Part shown: piece after piece, positions 3,905-11,623 of the stretch | Layout: each line of letters starts with the position of its first letter | Position numbering within the stretch: position 1 is the first letter of the stretch | Made by a program: the position numbers and the translations under genes | Assembly (NCBI RefSeq): GCF_003970675.1 | Contig: NZ_CP034562.1 | Span: forward strand, 992,001-1,056,000 | DNA from: Flammeovirga pectinis | GTDB lineage: Bacteria > Bacteroidota > Bacteroidia > Cytophagales > Flammeovirgaceae | Reading direction: 5' to 3' | Length of the DNA: 64,000 nt | The notes under the pieces: model-generated | What the model was told of the DNA's origin: nothing | What the model saw: the letters and a program-made list of their open reading frames with translations, nothing else | Database searches by the model: none

Positions 3905-4851
3905 TTAGGCTGCACTAATATCAATATTATTTATAAGCTCAATAGGACTATAAAATCCATACCTTTTACGAGGTCTATTATTGAGTTTATTTTCAATTTT
4001 GGAGATATACTTTAAAAGTACATCTTCCATACTCTGACCTTTAGGAAAATATTGTCTTAATAACCCATTTGTGTTTTCATTTGTACCTCTTTGCCAGCTA
4101 GAGTAAGGATCTGCGAAATAGGCTACAGTATTACATAATTCTTCTATTTTCTGATGACAAGCAAACTCTTTTCCATTATCAAAAGTAATAGTATACCAAG
4201 GAATTGGCGTTCTTTCATACATTGATAACAATGTAGCACCTACATCATTTTCTGATTTACTATTTGCCTTTCCTACTAATAGATACCCACTCTTTCTATC
4301 TACTAAAGTTACAAGCACAGCAGAACGAGCTTTAGTACCAATTACCACGTCAGCTTCCCAATGTCCTATTTCAGAACGATTATCAGCTTCTATTGGTCTA
4401 GTACGTATATTTTTCCTGTTTGTAAGTTTCCCTCTAGTTTCCTTAGAGGCTCTTTTAACGAAGGATTTTGACTCATCTGAGAATATATAATTTGATATAC
4501 TGTTTCAACACACGGAAAGGAGCCTCCTTCTAAGCGTTTCCGATTTACAAGTTGTTCAGGACTATATTGGTTAACCTCTAATGCAGACAGAATTTCATCT
4601 TTATATTCTATTGTAGAACTATGAAAACCAGTTTGTTTACATTTCTTTTTAAGGTATCGTTTATGAGCATACTCAGCATCGTATCCATCAAGGTGATCAC
4701 AACGCTTTAATTCTCTACCTACAGTCGATTTATGAACGTTGATTTTATCAGATATTAAACTATTTGAATATCCTTCTTCTAAATACGTTTCTATTTTATA
4801 CCTTTGTGATAGGGTAAGATCCATCTTTATTGCAATTTTGTTTTTAAACAA
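3905..4851 (-). pseudogene. IS30-family transposase, split by a -1 frame change
   Basis: The 5' part (4851 down to the TAG at 4390) carries the IS30 N-terminal helix-turn-helix (LTLSQRYKIETYLEEGYSNS, then INVHKSTVGREL). The 3' part (3905-~4506) carries the DDE integrase core: D in GHWEADVVIG, D in TITFDNGKEF, E in GTNENTNGLLRQYFP, then NNRPRKRYGF. The second frame stays open upstream of its first start as RGKLTNRKNIRTRPIE, which matches the IS30 linker, so the frame switch belongs between about 4480 and 4506, after TVYQIIYS. Joined, the protein is ~315 residues, the normal size. Either a 1-nt loss killed it or it uses -1 frameshifting; no strong slippery heptamer is visible at that point, so I favour decay. 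Confidence 0.8.
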
Positions 4852-4922: not shown

Positions 4923-5148
4923 CTAAGAAATGAAAAAGGTACACAAAAAATTCGCATACCTTTAACCTTAACCAATAAACAACACATAAAATAAACACAT
5001 GCTAAAAGCTACGAAGGATTTTCACCTTTTCATCTTAAACCGAAGTTTTCTGACATAGCTTTTCTGTATTTGAATTACAAATTTAGTGTATATTTCAAAA
5101 AATTGAAATCTTTTTAAAGTTATTAATTAAGAATTTCAATAATTGTAA

Positions 5149-5156
5149 TAAATTTG
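5149..5156 (+). promoter_or_regulatory. Bacteroidota -7 promoter element for the Lrp-type regulator
   Basis: TAAATTTG is an exact TAnnTTTG match 27 nt before the ATG at 5184. The remaining 4928-5148 stretch between the IS end and this motif is very AT-rich and shows nothing else I can support. Confidence 0.5.
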
Positions 5157-5183
5157 GGTAAATAATGAAGTGTATTTAATAAA

Positions 5184-5693
5184 ATGGCCGAACTTATGGA
5201 AAAAATACCTGAGATTGATCACGTCGATATAAAGATTTTGTCCGAATTATTGAAAGATGCGAAAACTCCGTACACGGAAATCGCTGAAAGAATATTTGTT
5301 TCGGGCGGAACAGTTCATGTTAGAATGAAAAAAATGGAGAAAATGGGGATCGTAAAAGGTTCAACATTAGATCTCGATTTTTCAAAATTAGGATATGATA
5401 TTACATCGTTCTTGGGCATCTATTTAGAAAAGAGTAGTCTGTACGAAGAAGTATGTACTGAGCTAGAAAAAATTCCTGAAATCCTTAATTTGCATTATAC
5501 AACTGGAGATTGGAGTATATTCGTTAGAATTGCTTGTAGAGATACAAATCACCTTCGCCAAGTATTGCATGATAAAATACAAAGCATATCAGGTATATCT
5601 AGAACAGAAACATTTATTTCGTTAGAAGAGAAGTTCAACAGGCCGTTAGCTTTTGACGAATCTGAAATGACTAGTTCTGAAGAAGAAGTCTAA
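5184..5693 (+). CDS. Lrp/AsnC-family transcriptional regulator
   Basis: The 169-residue DNA-binding protein has an N-terminal winged helix-turn-helix (residues ~14-62: DHVDIKILSELLKDAKTPYTEIAERIFVS split across two helices, then VRMKKMEKMGIVKG) and a C-terminal RAM ligand-binding domain (~70-155; LGIYLEKSSLYEEV, HYTTGDWSIFVRIACRD). Lrp-type proteins form octamers and respond to amino acids. It is monocistronic with its own terminator (5741-5776) and faces the McrBC-like operon tail to tail. It is slightly longer than typical because of a short acidic tail (ESEMTSSEEEV). Confidence 0.92.
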   Translation: MAELMEKIPEIDHVDIKILSELLKDAKTPYTEIAERIFVSGGTVHVRMKKMEKMGIVKGSTLDLDFSKLGYDITSFLGIYLEKSSLYEEVCTELEKIPEILNLHYTTGDWSIFVRIACRDTNHLRQVLHDKIQSISGISRTETFISLEEKFNRPLAFDESEMTSSEEEV

Positions 5694-5740
5694 GTCTATC
5701 ATAGATTATTTAGATATGTCGACTTAAAGTCAATTATATA

Positions 5741-5776
5741 AAAAAACGAAGCATAAATAATATGCTTCGTTTTTTT
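5741..5776. terminator. Bidirectional terminator between the Lrp regulator and the nuclease operon
   Basis: 15-bp perfect stem 5741-5755 / 5761-5775, loop AATAA, A-tract one side and T-tract the other, so it can serve both converging units. Confidence 0.9.
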
Positions 5777-5827
5777 ATTTTTTAGCGAAAATGGTTAGAT
5801 ACTAAAATAGTAGATTAACTAATTATT

Positions 5828-7534
5828 TTATACTCCAACATTCCATTCTCGCATCATTTTCTTGATACAATTTTTTATAGGATCATTGCTTTCAGCATTG
5901 TTCATTACAATACCAATAATAGGTAAGAAATTATCATCATAGTTCATTGTCCATACAGGTCTGCCATAACAAGCATTAGGGCAGATTAACCATAGGAAAT
6001 CAGGCTTCTGATGATCTCTTCTTTCTCCTATAACTCGAACACAAGTATAATACTTAAACGAAGACTCTTTTAGATCTTGATCTAAGACAGTTTTCGCCAT
6101 CTTATACTTTGCATCCAGAATACCATATCGTAAAGAAAGGTGAGGATCCATATACTCAACAACAAAATCGGGAGTATAATAGAAACTATCTCTATGAGGT
6201 TTACCATGTAAAACCAAGTGGGTATCTGTAGGTTCTCTTCCAATTTGGGGTTGATAAAGGAAATTCATTTGCCAACGTCCTTTAATTGGTTGAATTGATA
6301 CGCGCTTTGGAATAAATTCGCCTTCTTCTAAAGGGCTTTCGTCAATCTTAACATTATAATCTTTAAAGCACTCAACTAACGCATCATAGAGTTGGTAGTA
6401 GGTATAAAGTTCATAAATTTGATCTAAGAATGACGTCTTAAGCGAAGAACTATTTTCATTGGTATCTATCTTTAGGTTATACACCTGTAATAGACTTAAA
6501 AATATCTTAGAATATAGATTTACCGATCCAAAACGCTTTGTTAATCTCGGAGGATGAACATTGGGTTTTGTGTTTGGTAATAATTGCATGTACTTTCTTT
6601 CAAGACGGTATAATCTTGTCTTGATATCATTAACATCCTCTATAGCCTGAGAGTTGATGATAACTTGTGCAGCTTCAAAAGTAGCGTAACCATTACCATC
6701 TCCTTGAAAATAATTTTTAGAATCATTTATTAGATGAATATGAGTGATCAAATCATCTAATAATTTTCTAGCCCAATAAAAGCCACCTAAAATACACTCA
6801 TTTTCGTACGTAGCATACTCCATTTTAACAACGGGAGCTTCAATACGATCAATAACAGTGTACTGTCCATTAATTTCTATAGCATCTGGATGATCTTTTA
6901 ACGAATCATCAAAATAGAGTTCGTCAAGGTGTTCTATTAACCAATCAATACTCTGACTGTCAATATCAGCGGTGGCAAAATCTTGTATTTCCCTTTCTTG
7001 AACTGTAGAATACCTTGGGCTATGTGCCAAATCAGGAAGAATATCTTCCATGTCATTGATAAATTTATCCAAAGGTCCTAAACGGGTCATTGATAAAGTT
7101 GAAGGTTTCTTCTTCTTATCATCCTCAGATTCTTCTCTAGTAAAGAGTTTTAGAATTAACGACTTATTCTTTTTATATAAATAAGTGATCATCCCCTCTG
7201 CATCGTCAGAGCTTAGTTTAGATGCATCTATACGTACCTGAAAAGGTTCTCCGCCACAAGTAACTGTGGCAACACCTAATTGGTTCGAAAAATGCTGACC
7301 TAATCCAACGGTTATTCTACTTTCCCTTTCTGAATTGTGGATTAAAGAATTTTCTACTTCAACACCATCTATAGTGACTTTTGTGTTAACAGGAAGTTCA
7401 AAATATTGGAATTCTAACTCATAGAAATGATGCTCCAAAACAACGTGTAAACCGTCGATTGGGAGCACCTCTTCTCTTTCTGTATTGTAAGGTGGAGAGT
7501 TATCTTTTCTTATATGAAAAATCTTAAACTCCAT
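5828..7534 (-). CDS. McrC-like DUF2357-type protein with C-terminal PD-(D/E)XK nuclease domain
   Basis: The 568-residue protein starts 2 nt after the stop of the AAA+ gene, so the two are co-translated. The C-terminal ~150 residues hold a PD-(D/E)XK nuclease core: D456 in YYTPDFVVEY and D474-x-K476 in YGILDAKYK, followed by a helix with conserved aromatic residues. The N-terminal two thirds (beta-rich start, then helical linker, residues ~20-400) resemble the DUF2357 region of McrC-type partners. In McrBC, McrC stimulates the McrB GTPase and cuts DNA. Predicted role: nuclease arm of a two-gene restriction/anti-phage module. Family assignment is by motif and gene order; the target is unknown. 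Confidence 0.75.
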   Translation of the reverse strand: MEFKIFHIRKDNSPPYNTEREEVLPIDGLHVVLEHHFYELEFQYFELPVNTKVTIDGVEVENSLIHNSERESRITVGLGQHFSNQLGVATVTCGGEPFQVRIDASKLSSDDAEGMITYLYKKNKSLILKLFTREESEDDKKKKPSTLSMTRLGPLDKFINDMEDILPDLAHSPRYSTVQEREIQDFATADIDSQSIDWLIEHLDELYFDDSLKDHPDAIEINGQYTVIDRIEAPVVKMEYATYENECILGGFYWARKLLDDLITHIHLINDSKNYFQGDGNGYATFEAAQVIINSQAIEDVNDIKTRLYRLERKYMQLLPNTKPNVHPPRLTKRFGSVNLYSKIFLSLLQVYNLKIDTNENSSSLKTSFLDQIYELYTYYQLYDALVECFKDYNVKIDESPLEEGEFIPKRVSIQPIKGRWQMNFLYQPQIGREPTDTHLVLHGKPHRDSFYYTPDFVVEYMDPHLSLRYGILDAKYKMAKTVLDQDLKESSFKYYTCVRVIGERRDHQKPDFLWLICPNACYGRPVWTMNYDDNFLPIIGIVMNNAESNDPIKNCIKKMMREWNVGV

Positions 7535-7536
7535 TT

Positions 7537-10107
7537 TTATCCGTCTATTGAGAAGTAATTATAGAAATGATGATTAAATCCTTCTTTAGCACCTCTGTCT
7601 AACATCTTTTGTAAAGTCCACTCAGCATGAGAGTCCTTAAGGTTAAACCCTTTTACAATGTCTAGTAGTGTTTTCAATCCTTCACGAGCTTCTGCTCCTT
7701 GCAAGTTGATACGAGTAAAGACACGTTGAGCTAAGCAATAATCCAATGGACGGAATTGTTCGTTCATTGCACTATGTGCTAAATTACAATACTCAATAAC
7801 TGCTTTTCTAGTTCTTAAACTAATTTGAATTCCAAGGTTGCTTAATTCAGCAGAAATTTGCTCAAATCGTTCTTCAAGTTCAGTATCAATAAACTCAAGC
7901 TGATCTGGAGCTAATTCTTGTTTGAAATCTTTTAAATCAAATAAGTCACGAATACTATCAAATGGTATTTCGTAAGCCTCAGGCATAATAATTTCTGAAC
8001 TGATTAACGGGACGTCCCTCTTTGGCAAGTCTAACCTTACAATATGAGATCTGTCTAATAATCTAGGCGAAATTTGTTCTGTAGTAGAATCTAAGTTTAA
8101 AGTACCAAGAAAACGTAAGTTGTTGGCATATTCAATAAACTCATTATTACCTAAAGAGATTTTTATACCTTTATCCATCTGTGCTTTGGTATCTGTATTC
8201 GAGTAGAATGCAGCCCAATAATACTCAATAGGAGAGAGGTTAGCCTCATCTAATAAGCAATATGACATAGGAGATTGGTGGTATGATGTAGATTTGAACT
8301 CACCATCTAATTGCTTTAAGAGGTCGTACAAATCTGTATTTGCTCTCTGAAAACGTTTAGATAGAGGGTTTGCAAATCCAATAATATCTTTTTGAGATGA
8401 CCATCCTCTTGCAACAGGTATTTCTGAGAAACGTTCTGGCCTTGCTAAAGATTGAATCATGAACCTACTCAAAGATGTTTTACCAGAGCCTGGAGGTCCC
8501 CATAATAACGTAATTGAGTTCTGATGCATGGCAATCAAAACATTAGCAATAAAATGATCAGGGTAATTACGTCCTAATCTTCCCAAACGTTTGTGTACTT
8601 TCTGAGAAAGGTCTTTTAGAGAATTTATTTGTGTTTCATTCTCAATAGAATAATCTTTTAATTCAAAATCATTCTTTTGTTGAGGAAGCTGATTTTGCCC
8701 TGAAGAAGCAGAATTGAAAACATCGAATTGCATCTTTGTTTTTAATAAATTCTTCAAAGATTTATCAGCATCTTCTTGAACCTGAATAAATTCTTCTTTT
8801 AAAGCATCAATAGAAACATCTAGATTATGTTTCACATTTCTTGCGTTATCAATTTCTTCATTGATTCTTGCAAGGTTATCAAATGTGTGTGCTAATTCTA
8901 TAGCCTCTGCTTTATCCGATAATTCTTCACGTACTTTTTCAAGCTTAGACAATCCTTCTTCAATTTCTTTATTGATCGCAGATTCTCTTTCTTTCTGAAG
9001 GCTTTCTCTAATCTTCTGTTCGTTCTGACGAAGATTATTTATGCCATCTTCAAGGTCTTGAATTTCTTCTGAAAAACGAGCACTCTCTTTTTTAATCTGA
9101 TCTCTTTCTCTCTTTTGTTGAGCGATAGAGTTATCCAATTCAAGCTTTTCGCTTTGTAATCCATCTAAACTTGCTTTGAAGAAATCATTTTCTGCCAAAG
9201 AAGTAACGAATTGTTGTAAGTATTGAAGATTTTCTTGAGGTCTAGCAAATAATTTTTCAAGACGTTGATAACGTTCATGAAAAGATGTAATTGTATTGTC
9301 CTTAGAAATTGCTTTCCATACTTTATCAGCAACCTCTAAAGATTGCTTTTTATTTAACTGATCTTCTGCCCATTTAAATAGATCTTGTCTACTAATAAAA
9401 TCAACAGTATCAACAATATAGTATTCAATATCTTGTGTAGAACGAACAAGCTTACGCTTTAATCCTTCTTCAGGCATATTAAATTCTAAATAAGCATCTT
9501 TTGGTAATTCATATACCTCAACGCTTTTACGTACTCCAGTAGCAGAAAGACGAATAGTCTTTGCTTCGGTACTTGTTTTAACGCCCACAAAAGGTCCATA
9601 AATAAGGCCTTCTTTAGTTTGGGCAAAGAACTTGCGTTCTTGGGCTACATAGACTTCGTTAATGATGTCATAGTAGTGCTTGTCTGGATGAAATAAATGT
9701 AATTCAAGGTCAATTTCACCGGGAAAGATTTCTAATAGTTGATCTTCAGATAATACACCTAAGCGATCAGCATGAGTGATGTGTTTGGTTAAAGAATTTT
9801 CTTTATTGTAAGCATCATCGTCCGTTAATTGTTTATTTGGACGTACGCCTTTAACTTTAATTAATTCTTCTAATTTAAAATCAGTAGTTAACGTATAGGG
9901 TGCACTTGCTAAAAATATAGTCTCACCTAACTTATTAATGTCTAATTTAAACCATTCTTCGCCATCAAAATAAAATAATGGAATTATAAATTTTTTATGC
10001 TGCTTAAAATTCTGAGGATGCTGAGCACCAACTATGTAACTATCTTCTCCTAATGCCTTGTAACTATCATAATCATCAAAAATGTCATCTAATTCTGTAA
10101 TTTTCAT
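7537..10107 (-). CDS. Coiled-coil McrB-like AAA+ NTPase
   Basis: The 856-residue protein has three parts. Residues 1-~290: a beta-rich region I cannot assign, in the place where McrB proteins carry target-sensing domains. Residues ~310-460: a long charged coiled coil (runs of E, K, Q such as QQKRERDQIKKESARFSEE). Residues ~510-856: AAA+ motor with Walker A GPPGSGKTS (537-545), Walker B CLLDEAN (617-623) and a sensor strand LGTLNLDSTTEQ (~667-678), followed by SPRLLDRSHIVRLDLP. This strand resembles the McrB/MoxR signature rather than classic AAA+. Gene order (motor first, nuclease second, 2-nt gap) is that of mcrB-mcrC. GTP versus ATP use cannot be read from sequence. Confidence 0.78.
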   Translation of the reverse strand: MKITELDDIFDDYDSYKALGEDSYIVGAQHPQNFKQHKKFIIPLFYFDGEEWFKLDINKLGETIFLASAPYTLTTDFKLEELIKVKGVRPNKQLTDDDAYNKENSLTKHITHADRLGVLSEDQLLEIFPGEIDLELHLFHPDKHYYDIINEVYVAQERKFFAQTKEGLIYGPFVGVKTSTEAKTIRLSATGVRKSVEVYELPKDAYLEFNMPEEGLKRKLVRSTQDIEYYIVDTVDFISRQDLFKWAEDQLNKKQSLEVADKVWKAISKDNTITSFHERYQRLEKLFARPQENLQYLQQFVTSLAENDFFKASLDGLQSEKLELDNSIAQQKRERDQIKKESARFSEEIQDLEDGINNLRQNEQKIRESLQKERESAINKEIEEGLSKLEKVREELSDKAEAIELAHTFDNLARINEEIDNARNVKHNLDVSIDALKEEFIQVQEDADKSLKNLLKTKMQFDVFNSASSGQNQLPQQKNDFELKDYSIENETQINSLKDLSQKVHKRLGRLGRNYPDHFIANVLIAMHQNSITLLWGPPGSGKTSLSRFMIQSLARPERFSEIPVARGWSSQKDIIGFANPLSKRFQRANTDLYDLLKQLDGEFKSTSYHQSPMSYCLLDEANLSPIEYYWAAFYSNTDTKAQMDKGIKISLGNNEFIEYANNLRFLGTLNLDSTTEQISPRLLDRSHIVRLDLPKRDVPLISSEIIMPEAYEIPFDSIRDLFDLKDFKQELAPDQLEFIDTELEERFEQISAELSNLGIQISLRTRKAVIEYCNLAHSAMNEQFRPLDYCLAQRVFTRINLQGAEAREGLKTLLDIVKGFNLKDSHAEWTLQKMLDRGAKEGFNHHFYNYFSIDG

Positions 10108-10152
10108 TTTTTAGTAATTGTATATTTATACTAATTCACCATGAAAAATAGT

Positions 10153-10160
10153 CAAACTTA
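10153..10160 (-). promoter_or_regulatory. -7 element for the McrBC-like operon
   Basis: On the minus strand the sequence reads TAAGTTTG, an exact TAnnTTTG match, 45 nt before the ATG at 10107. The same octamer occurs for the divergent transporter at 10208-10215. Confidence 0.5.
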
Positions 10161-10187
10161 CGCTATAATAAAAGTGATTTTTTTTAG

Positions 10188-10215
10188 TTTGTTATAGATG
10201 TGTTCAATAAGTTTG
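10188..10215 (+). promoter_or_regulatory. Promoter of the YfcC-type transporter
   Basis: TTTG at 10188-10191 and TAAGTTTG at 10208-10215, with a 16-nt spacing that is a little short for the Bacteroidota -33/-7 pair. The ATG is 31 nt downstream. Confidence 0.45.
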
Positions 10216-10246
10216 TGTTAATGTCTTTTAGAATACATCAATCAAC

Positions 10247-11623
10247 ATGAAAAAACTTCCTGATACACTTGTCATCGCTTCTGCGATTTTACTATTATTT
10301 ATAGGCTTTACTTGGCTTATCTCAGCAGGAGAGTACAGTAGGGAGTTAGTAAATGGACGTAATGTTTTGGTACCAGGAAGTTATCAAGAAGTCACTCCAT
10401 CACCTCAAGGAATTACCTCATTTTTTACTGCTCCTTTAAAAGGGTTTATTTCTGCAGCAGAAATAATTGCCTTTATTTTTATTGTAGGTGGTGCTTTTGG
10501 GATGATGACAACAACAGGTGCTATTGAATCTGGATTACAAAGATTAGTTGGATGGAGTAATAAACATGCACTCTATAAAAAGATAATAATTCCGGTAATT
10601 ATCGTATTTTTCTCTATTGCAGGAGCAACATTTGGAATGTCAGAAGAAGTCTTGATTTTTATTCTGATAACACTTCCAATGTCTAGAGCAATGAAATTGG
10701 ATCCTATAGTAGGAGTTGCCATTCCATTTGTTGGAGCAGGTATTGGCTTTGCTGGTGCAATTAGTAACCCGTTTACAATAGGTATAGCACAGGCAATTGC
10801 AGAAGTTCCTCTTTTTAGTGGATGGGAATACAGAATTTTTGTTTGGGTTATTTTTACAATAATTGGTGTTGTGTATATCATGCGTTATGTGTCGAAGATA
10901 GCCAACGACTCTTCTAAAAGTTTAATGGCTGATAGTATTGAACAAAATAATGAGTTGGAAGATGCTGATATCATTCCTTTTACAATAAGAAGATCACTTG
11001 TGTTAATAACGTTTGCCTCTGGGATTGTAATGCTTGTTATTGGTGTAGCAAAATACCATTGGTATATGATTGAAATCGGGGCCTTGTTTTTCGCAATTGG
11101 CGTAATATCGTGTATAATATGTGGTATCCATGTAGATAAAATAAGTGCTGGTTTTGTAAAAGGAGCAAAAGAAATGATGACTGCAGCATTAGTTGTTGCC
11201 TTTTGTAAAGGTATCTTGATAGTAGCATCCGACGGTAAAATTATAGATACAGTATTGCATGGTATTGCAGGTATGGTTAGCGGACTTCCAAAAGTTGCAT
11301 CTATAGAAGCAATGTTTATTTTTCAGAGTGCTTTAAATACATTCCTACCTTCAGGGTCAGGTCAAGCTGCATTAACAATGCCTATAATGGCTCCTTTAAG
11401 CGATTTGTTGGGAATATCAAGACAGGTTGCTGTGTTGGCTTTTCAATTTGGAGATGGGCTTACCAACCTAATAATTCCAACAAGTGGTGTAACGATGGGT
11501 GTGTTATCTATTGCTAAAATCCCATATGAAACTTGGGTGAAATGGATGGGCCCACTTTTGGTTATTTTAATGCTTGCTGCAGGTATTTTACTTTTAATAC
11601 CAATGTATTTTGGTTTATGGTAA
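10247..11623 (+). CDS. YfcC/DcuC-superfamily membrane transporter
   Basis: The 458-residue inner membrane protein has about 11-12 hydrophobic segments and family landmarks FIVGGAFGMMTTTGAIE, FFSIAGATFGMSEE, AGIGFAGAISNPFTIGIAQAIA and FLPSGSGQAALTMPIMAPL. The YfcC group belongs to the ion-transporter superfamily with C4-dicarboxylate and basic amino acid carriers; the substrate cannot be read here. The stop codon overlaps the next start (ATG 11617, TAA 11621), so the two genes are translationally coupled. Confidence 0.88.
   Translation: MKKLPDTLVIASAILLLFIGFTWLISAGEYSRELVNGRNVLVPGSYQEVTPSPQGITSFFTAPLKGFISAAEIIAFIFIVGGAFGMMTTTGAIESGLQRLVGWSNKHALYKKIIIPVIIVFFSIAGATFGMSEEVLIFILITLPMSRAMKLDPIVGVAIPFVGAGIGFAGAISNPFTIGIAQAIAEVPLFSGWEYRIFVWVIFTIIGVVYIMRYVSKIANDSSKSLMADSIEQNNELEDADIIPFTIRRSLVLITFASGIVMLVIGVAKYHWYMIEIGALFFAIGVISCIICGIHVDKISAGFVKGAKEMMTAALVVAFCKGILIVASDGKIIDTVLHGIAGMVSGLPKVASIEAMFIFQSALNTFLPSGSGQAALTMPIMAPLSDLLGISRQVAVLAFQFGDGLTNLIIPTSGVTMGVLSIAKIPYETWVKWMGPLLVILMLAAGILLLIPMYFGLW

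Follow-up and report, generated by a model that had tools for sequence, protein, structure and literature searches.

The findings presented here concern a 64,000-nucleotide stretch of the Flammeovirga pectinis genome (6.68 Mb), G000:C1:992001-1056000, hereafter called the window. Two of its minus-strand genes, separated by 2 nt, encode a CnuB/McrB-like motor (7537..10107, a P-loop protein of 856 amino acids (aa) recognised by open reading frame (ORF), profile and motif evidence) and a CnuC/McrC-like partner (5828..7534, a PD-(D/E)XK protein of 568 aa); the layout agrees with the initial annotation of the stretch. On balance, we regard the pair as probably a two-gene McrBC machine of the NxD branch and of the coiled-coil/nuclease tandem (CoCoNuT) kind, from a mobile family that settled as a fixed gene pair in Flammeovirga, where its likeliest job would be standing defence.

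The motor comprises a strand-rich N-terminal region (residues 1-240) that contains the family motif G171-P-F173, a long coiled coil (about 309-468) and an NxD AAA+ domain (about 515-850). Re-translation of the minus strand placed the Walker A motif GPPGSGKTS at 8473..8499 (residues 537-545) and the Walker B motif CLLDEAN at 8239..8259 (residues 617-623), both as annotated initially, and together with the alignment it placed the NxD motif N671-L-D673 at 8089..8097. The Walker A glycines, K543, D620, E621, N671, D673, R682 and R686 were invariant in all 15 aligned motors (window included), the most distant of which was 20% identical to the window motor. As judged from the aligned sequences, the invariance of the motifs in this alignment and in that of the partners is far beyond chance. 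The strand LGTLNLDST was present as had been stated, but it had been overlooked that it carries NxD instead of the NxxD of classical McrB: the window motor reads GTLNLD, whereas GTMNTAD stands at this place in both classical McrB copies that were inspected. The spacing between Walker B and NxD was 50 residues in the window motor, 45-52 in the readable cases (17 of 19 NxD motors) and 53 in two classical McrB.

Profile comparison matched the motor to a family of NxD McrB proteins of 524-543 aa from genomes G301, G302 and G305 (E 2.6e-28 over 307 columns, NxD included). Its best PADLOC match was PDC-M26A (102 bits), a family matched by all 10 motors of alignment A4, window included, and Pfam returned sub-cut-off matches only, mostly to the P-loop. 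When the A4 profile was compared with PDB sequences, 41 matched at E<=0.01 and only E. coli McrB spanned the P-loop to the NxD region (6hz4_A, aligned at profile positions 531-670, E 0.0046). The AlphaFold2 model of the motor had a mean predicted local distance difference test (pLDDT) score of 53.8 and could be used only for the AAA+ domain and some of the coiled coil; the Foldseek matches listed for it were AAA+ proteins including dynein, MCM and NorQ, which we take to fit the McrB-type AAA+ clade. Helices were predicted at 309-400 and 410-468 (blockwise pLDDT 35-76), and two of 10 blocks showed a heptad signal, 315-370 (p 0.0005) and 399-454 (p 0.0095), the other 8 having p >0.05. Together these argue, with moderate confidence, for the long coiled coil of the initial annotation, which here belongs to the same protein as the NxD GTPase domain. 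A reading of the motor as an SMC, Rad50 or JetC protein was set aside, the matches being weak and mainly inside the coiled coil.

The partner consists of an N-terminal strand region (about 39-102), a DUF2357-like helical region and a C-terminal PD-(D/E)XK nuclease. Alignment, profile and re-translation located the nuclease core, P455-D456 ... D474-A-K476, at 6107..6172 on the minus strand (residues 455-476). Since D456, D474 and K476, the residues assigned to the site initially, were invariant in all 15 aligned partners (window included, the most distant being 16% identical to the window partner), the nuclease is predicted to be probably active. In profile comparison, the partner aligned over 432 columns (E 2.6e-7) with a three-member McrC-like family encoded beside PDC-M26 motors, and PD and D-A-K fell in register; the one family member scanned, L064:7151-9412, scored above the Pfam thresholds of both DUF2357 (129 bits) and PDDEXK_7 (103 bits). 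Pfam also found PDDEXK_7 in 3 and DUF2357 in 1 of the 11 relatives in alignment A3, and DUF2357 in 3 and PDDEXK_7 in 2 of the 11 in alignment A6, which shares members with A3. The DUF2357-like region claimed earlier is therefore supported through relatives and profile comparison, but not by a Pfam match of the window partner itself at E<=1.

Structure prediction of the partner (mean pLDDT 70.1), a check proposed with the initial annotation, found E. coli McrC by fold. Three Foldseek matches reached E<=0.001: the YdjA-YdiS model 9a5m, which was the best (E 6.3e-6), and E. coli McrC twice (6hz4_M, E 8.6e-6; 6ut6_G, E 1.6e-4). Because their TM-scores were low (0.17-0.27), these matches support homology and not detailed superposition. 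The strands at 39-102 matched Ig domains only weakly in Foldseek (titin I10, E 0.77). No match was obtained when the 15 partners were scanned with NCBIfam, nor when the partner profile was compared with PDB sequences (E<=1). Altogether, profile, fold and the NxD motif support the earlier claim of a McrBC-like module of the coiled-coil/nuclease tandem type, distinct from classical McrBC, and of the possible assignments this class has the best support.

The earlier suggestion of something not yet characterised is not supported as it stood, as the CoCoNuT class was described in 2024 (PMC11090510). The main text of that paper defines the class by the NxD branch and a coiled-coil fusion, with Types I-A and I-C as two-gene forms, and reports CoCoNuTs to be most common in Pseudomonadota and Bacillota, yet widespread; a text match for 'bacteroid' is absent from it. 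According to the same text, no NxD McrB had been characterised at the time of writing, and the cleavage target of CoCoNuTs was predicted only. Compared with Type I as described there, the window pair likewise has two genes only, an NxD GTPase with a fused coiled coil and an N-terminal extension, and a McrC homologue with an N-terminal strand region, a DUF2357-like part and a PD-(D/E)XK site. Type I is also characterised by a cold-shock-like OB fold at the N-terminus of CnuB, by an immunoglobulin-like beta-sandwich at that of CnuC and, often in I-B and I-C, by a YTH/EVE-like domain. The window pair differs in being fixed in one Bacteroidota genus, and CSD-like and YTH-like domains were not demonstrated. 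An insert of helices separating the Walker B and NxD motifs, as described for Type I-A, was not seen in the window motor, a comparison made on the spacing of 50 residues and with no I-A positive control, so the pair is probably not of Type I-A. Of the extra genes that mark Types I-B, II and III (CnuA, CnuH or CnuE), none was recognised beside the pair in nine Flammeovirga and two related stretches, judged by size, identity and eye with domains partly scanned. Lacking both the insert and the extra genes of the other types, the pair would be I-C or an undefined neighbour; we describe it as CoCoNuT Type I-like, with a composition closest to that of I-C, and regard the subtype as unproven.

Two further systems resemble the window pair. 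PDC-M26 shares the homologous NxD motor, as reflected in the match of 102 bits, and a McrC partner, but the loci scoring highest for PDC-M26A (in G301, G302 and G305) have motors of 524-543 aa that lie on a branch of their own. These loci (L064 4793-9412, L065 5662-9531 and L066 4046-10366) constitute another NxD McrBC family, preceded by a PLD-like gene in G301 and by two C5 DNA methyltransferases in G305. The BsuM-type pair YdiS/YdjA (PDB 9a5m, an integrative model) provided the best Foldseek match of the partner. We take YdjA to be McrC-like, YdiS to be motor-like and both to be part of a methyltransferase-bearing system; in contrast, no methyltransferase was recognised beside the window pair. 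A literature search returned no publication on the Flammeovirga locus by title among the matches listed, and none for 'PDC-M26'.

The pair was present in all nine sampled Flammeovirga genomes. Within the family, the partner was also found in G305 (39% identity) and G307 (36%), and it was absent from seven other genomes, two of them less than 90% complete. At the level of the order, 20 of 390 sampled genomes matched at E<=0.001; 11 of these were the nine genus genomes, G305 and G307, and three further matches were credible (G694, G728 and G648). Six weak matches (E 5.2e-5 to 5.6e-4, over 69-107 profile positions) were probably due to chance; the one of the six inspected, in G684 (L041), fell by eye inside a phytoene synthase-like ORF. 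In the phylum samples, the window's own genome was the sole match, both with the single protein (1 of 296) and with the alignment (1 of 395). A contig scan with two peptide patterns returned five Flammeovirga loci and is not informative on absence elsewhere.

The site of the pair is equally constant. In nine of nine genus genomes, the motor gene adjoined a divergent DcuC-family carrier gene (10247..11623, plus strand, outside the system), and a malic-enzyme gene lay on the same side within the stretch. An Lrp/AsnC-type regulator gene (5184..5693, plus strand, also outside the system) lay on the opposite side in eight of nine, falling outside the fetched 20 kb in G296. Extra genes were found on the Lrp side in G301, G300 and G296. 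At L012 12456-14801, L015 12170-16777 and L016 12109-19884, differing extra genes, secreted-looking by eye, occupied the space between the nuclease and Lrp-type genes, and the module was intact. Altogether, the neighbours at the fixed site were DcuC-type, malic-enzyme, NUDIX-like and Lrp-type genes. Near the pair were, in G305, DUF349 and AlgH-like genes together with a gene that looked DEAD-box-like by eye, and, in G307, an arginyl-transferase-like gene together with trmD, the latter recognised by eye. Conserved housekeeping neighbourhoods across all Bacteroidota had been named initially as the finding that would speak against a defence module; a fixed housekeeping site was indeed found in nine of nine genus genomes, but the window's own genome was the only match among the 395 of the phylum, and relatives are mobile.

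Sequence divergence within the genus followed that of the surrounding genes. Protein identity to the window ranged over 84-97% for the motor and 78-97% for the partner, and over 77-97% for DcuC, 84-97% for malic enzyme, 91-98% for the Lrp-type protein, 65-94% for NUDIX and 53-82% for a GNAT-like protein; the module proteins of G301, the nearest relative, were 97% identical to those of the window. Nonsynonymous divergence (dN) to the seven more distant congeners was 0.106-0.127 for the motor, 0.120-0.161 for the partner, 0.107-0.113 for malic enzyme and 0.119-0.176 for DcuC. The motor thus evolves at about the slow pace of malic enzyme and the partner at about that of the DcuC transporter, and the Lrp-type gene is slower than both. 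The ratio of dN to synonymous divergence (dN/dS) was computable in 7 of 16 comparisons, synonymous sites being saturated in the remainder, and amounted to 0.033-0.061 for the motor (5 of 8) and 0.018-0.061 for the partner (2 of 8). The pair is under purifying selection in the genus. In trees restricted to linked neighbour genes, cnuB and malic enzyme formed the same main groups, cnuC was compatible with them, and DcuC departed at one weakly supported node (0.53).

These observations bring up the possibility that the module began in defence and has since been taken over by its host, for example for RNA or translation quality control or as a stress-dormancy switch, running the same cycle on host nucleic acid. 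Such a captured function would account for the fixation, the slow evolution and the place outside defence islands. It is favoured by the presence of the pair at one locus in nine of nine genomes, by a motor dN matching that of malic enzyme, by the agreement of the cnuB and malic-enzyme trees, by the neighbours in G305 and G307, among which no defence-like genes were recognised, and by the occurrence of classical McrBC in only six of the nine genus genomes. However, the pair is nearly absent outside Flammeovirgaceae, with three credible further matches in the 390 genomes of the order, and is missing from the seven other family genomes; its relatives are mobile, the dN of the partner is higher, and the stress role suggested in the main text of PMC11090510 is limited to Pseudo-Type I-B in Bacillus. 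Considering both sides, we judge a cellular role possible but rather unlikely.

Relatives of the pair were also found on mobile DNA. In a tree of the GTPase domains of 21 motors, in which 7 of 18 inner branches were well supported and 8 were open, the Flammeovirgaceae motors and G694 formed a supported group that joined the motor of an Acinetobacter plasmid (82/91 support), and the three PDC-M26 motors formed a supported branch of their own. Five plasmid neighbourhoods were examined. Three of the plasmids carried the same two-gene pair: one of Acinetobacter baumannii, where a very-short-patch-repair gene lay nearby together with genes annotated as a restriction endonuclease and a cytosine methyltransferase, one of Klebsiella, where the pair adjoined an annotated tyrosine recombinase, and one of Citrobacter. 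On an Acinetobacter indicus plasmid, the gene after a motor relative is annotated as a DUF2357 protein (899 aa), and the Vibrio stretch stopped at the record start, so that any partner would fall outside it. With the motor as tblastn query, matches at E<=1e-5 were obtained on 260 of 72,556 plasmid records, of which 158 came from Klebsiella; all matches were below 60% identity, one alone covered 80% of the query, and some covered the coiled-coil side only, so that their family identity is uncertain. Among the plasmid relatives, the partner was more divergent than the motor.

Among phage records, 1 of 50,697 matched the motor. A search of viral contigs with motor alignment A4 returned eight loci, of which L046 was the Acinetobacter baumannii plasmid by length and sequence and L048 and L049 were a near-identical pair. 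An ORF of 573-623 aa followed the motor in six of the eight (the stretch of L047 ended, and L050 had shorter ORFs), and integrase-like ORFs lay, by eye, near several of the motors. The search of viral contigs with partner alignment A3 found one locus, again the Acinetobacter plasmid, and that with alignment A1 found none. Because relatives of the pair occur on plasmids and viral contigs, we regard the family as mobile in other bacteria. Together with the PDC-M26A match, the plasmid relatives suggest a defence origin, and a defence role by descent is plausible.

From the same mobility it could be argued that the pair is an ordinary accessory anti-phage module whose ubiquity is an artefact of a small sample of nine genomes, and the matches in G694, G728 and G648 do look sporadic. 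Nevertheless, the pair lies at the same site beside the same gene in all nine and its divergence tracks that of the neighbours, which makes this explanation improbable. In addition, classical McrBC displays real accessory behaviour in the same genomes: it was recognised by PF10117 in six of the nine (three of five in one set and three of four in the other), on the same contig as the pair in the window genome and on C2, with the pair on C1, in G301. As classical McrBC is patchy and the window pair is present in nine of nine, the same genomes show both an accessory and a fixed pattern. The classical copy of the window genome and one G303 copy were 55% identical in McrC and 70% in McrB, as compared to 78% and 84% for the partner and motor of the window pair in the same genomes. 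The former copy, with an NxxD motor and a PF10117 partner, was located at G000:C1:1398781-1399713 (L043); a P-loop ORF of 1046 aa and an ORF of 204 aa lay upstream of it.

The window pair shares with classical McrBC the gene order, a motor with a PD-(D/E)XK partner, the McrC fold and, in a weak profile match, the register of PD...D-x-K: hhalign aligned the partner with two classical Flammeovirga McrBC copies at 26% probability with the catalytic residues in register, and the motor with the classical copies at the P-loop only. We reject the reading of the pair as a classical, DNA-targeting Type IV McrBC as highly improbable, because its motor is NxD and not NxxD and carries a coiled coil, its partner does not match PF10117, which separate loci in six of the nine genus genomes do, and the two classical McrB motors lie on a long branch far from all other motors in the GTPase tree.

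Returning to a CoCoNuT-type machine kept for standing defence, several observations weigh against it. Fixation is unusual for a defence system, and no defence-island or mobile context was recognised around the window copy in the nine genus genomes, G305 and G307, where neighbours were partly scanned. The probable assignment to CoCoNuTs was made on the published description of the class, not on CnuB/CnuC reference sequences. In the tree, the deeper order of the NxD motors was poorly resolved, and the coiled-coil motors did not form one clade apart from the PDC-M26 motors. The window partner had no Pfam, PADLOC or NCBIfam match at E<=1, PADLOC matched none of 11 aligned partners, and the partner was rare on plasmids (2 of 72,556 records at E<=1e-3, tblastn). 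Finally, nearly all of residues 1-240 had pLDDT values below 50 in the model of the motor, so that neither a cold-shock-like OB fold (CSD) nor a YTH domain could be demonstrated there. Strands were predicted in this region at low pLDDT, and neither a CSD nor a YTH/EVE-like domain was among the best 25 of 32 Pfam families for 12 motors. The N-terminal profile had no match in PDB at E<=10, and when set against the N-terminal part of the PDC-M26 motors it showed no similarity (E 0.12). The initial annotation had called the module the likeliest anti-phage system in the window; as written, this is not supported, given the fixed housekeeping site and a look for defence genes that covered the pair and its neighbours.

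If the pair works as its parts suggest, the 856-aa motor would form a ring driven by nucleoside triphosphate, and its N-terminal region and coiled coil would recognise a ligand, either nucleic acid or a translation-related signal. The 568-aa McrC-like partner would dock on the ring, stimulate hydrolysis through the NxD site and cut nucleic acid, DNA or RNA, with its intact PD-(D/E)XK site. The likeliest outcome would be standing innate defence, by cleavage of foreign nucleic acid or by shutdown of the infected cell.

The divergent region between the motor and DcuC-family genes (139 bp, 10108..10246) was itself conserved: in the alignment of nine genomes, 65 of 139 columns were invariant, with a longest run of 28, as compared to 19 of 188 (run 2) upstream of the malic-enzyme gene and 11 of 159 (run 2, eight genomes) upstream of a 283-aa gene. 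A region upstream of the Lrp/AsnC-type gene (window 5047-5183) was more conserved, with 90 of 149 columns invariant and a run of 23 in eight genomes. A search of the whole genome with the conserved promoter block gave no clear second copy, the next best match having E 0.0096 over 39 bp, and Rfam gave no matches over window 5000-11000. We tentatively propose, as a possibility slightly less likely than a captured function as such, that a mobile CoCoNuT-type module was domesticated in the Flammeovirga ancestor as a core machine, for RNA or translation surveillance or as a stress switch, and that it is perhaps co-regulated with the DcuC-type transporter through the 139-bp promoter.

Beyond the Lrp-type gene, the window also contained a remnant resembling an insertion sequence (IS), and no such ORF was found at that place in the near relative G301. 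Two adjoining minus-strand ORFs at window 3905-4851, with HTH_38 and a sub-threshold rve match, resembled a split transposase, of IS30 type by eye.

The genus-wide fixation is the part of these results worth following. As a compact two-gene pair with an apparently active nuclease site and purifying selection in every sampled genome of the genus, the module is well suited to asking what NxD McrBC systems recognise and cleave, and whether a restriction-type module can become a fixed cellular gene.

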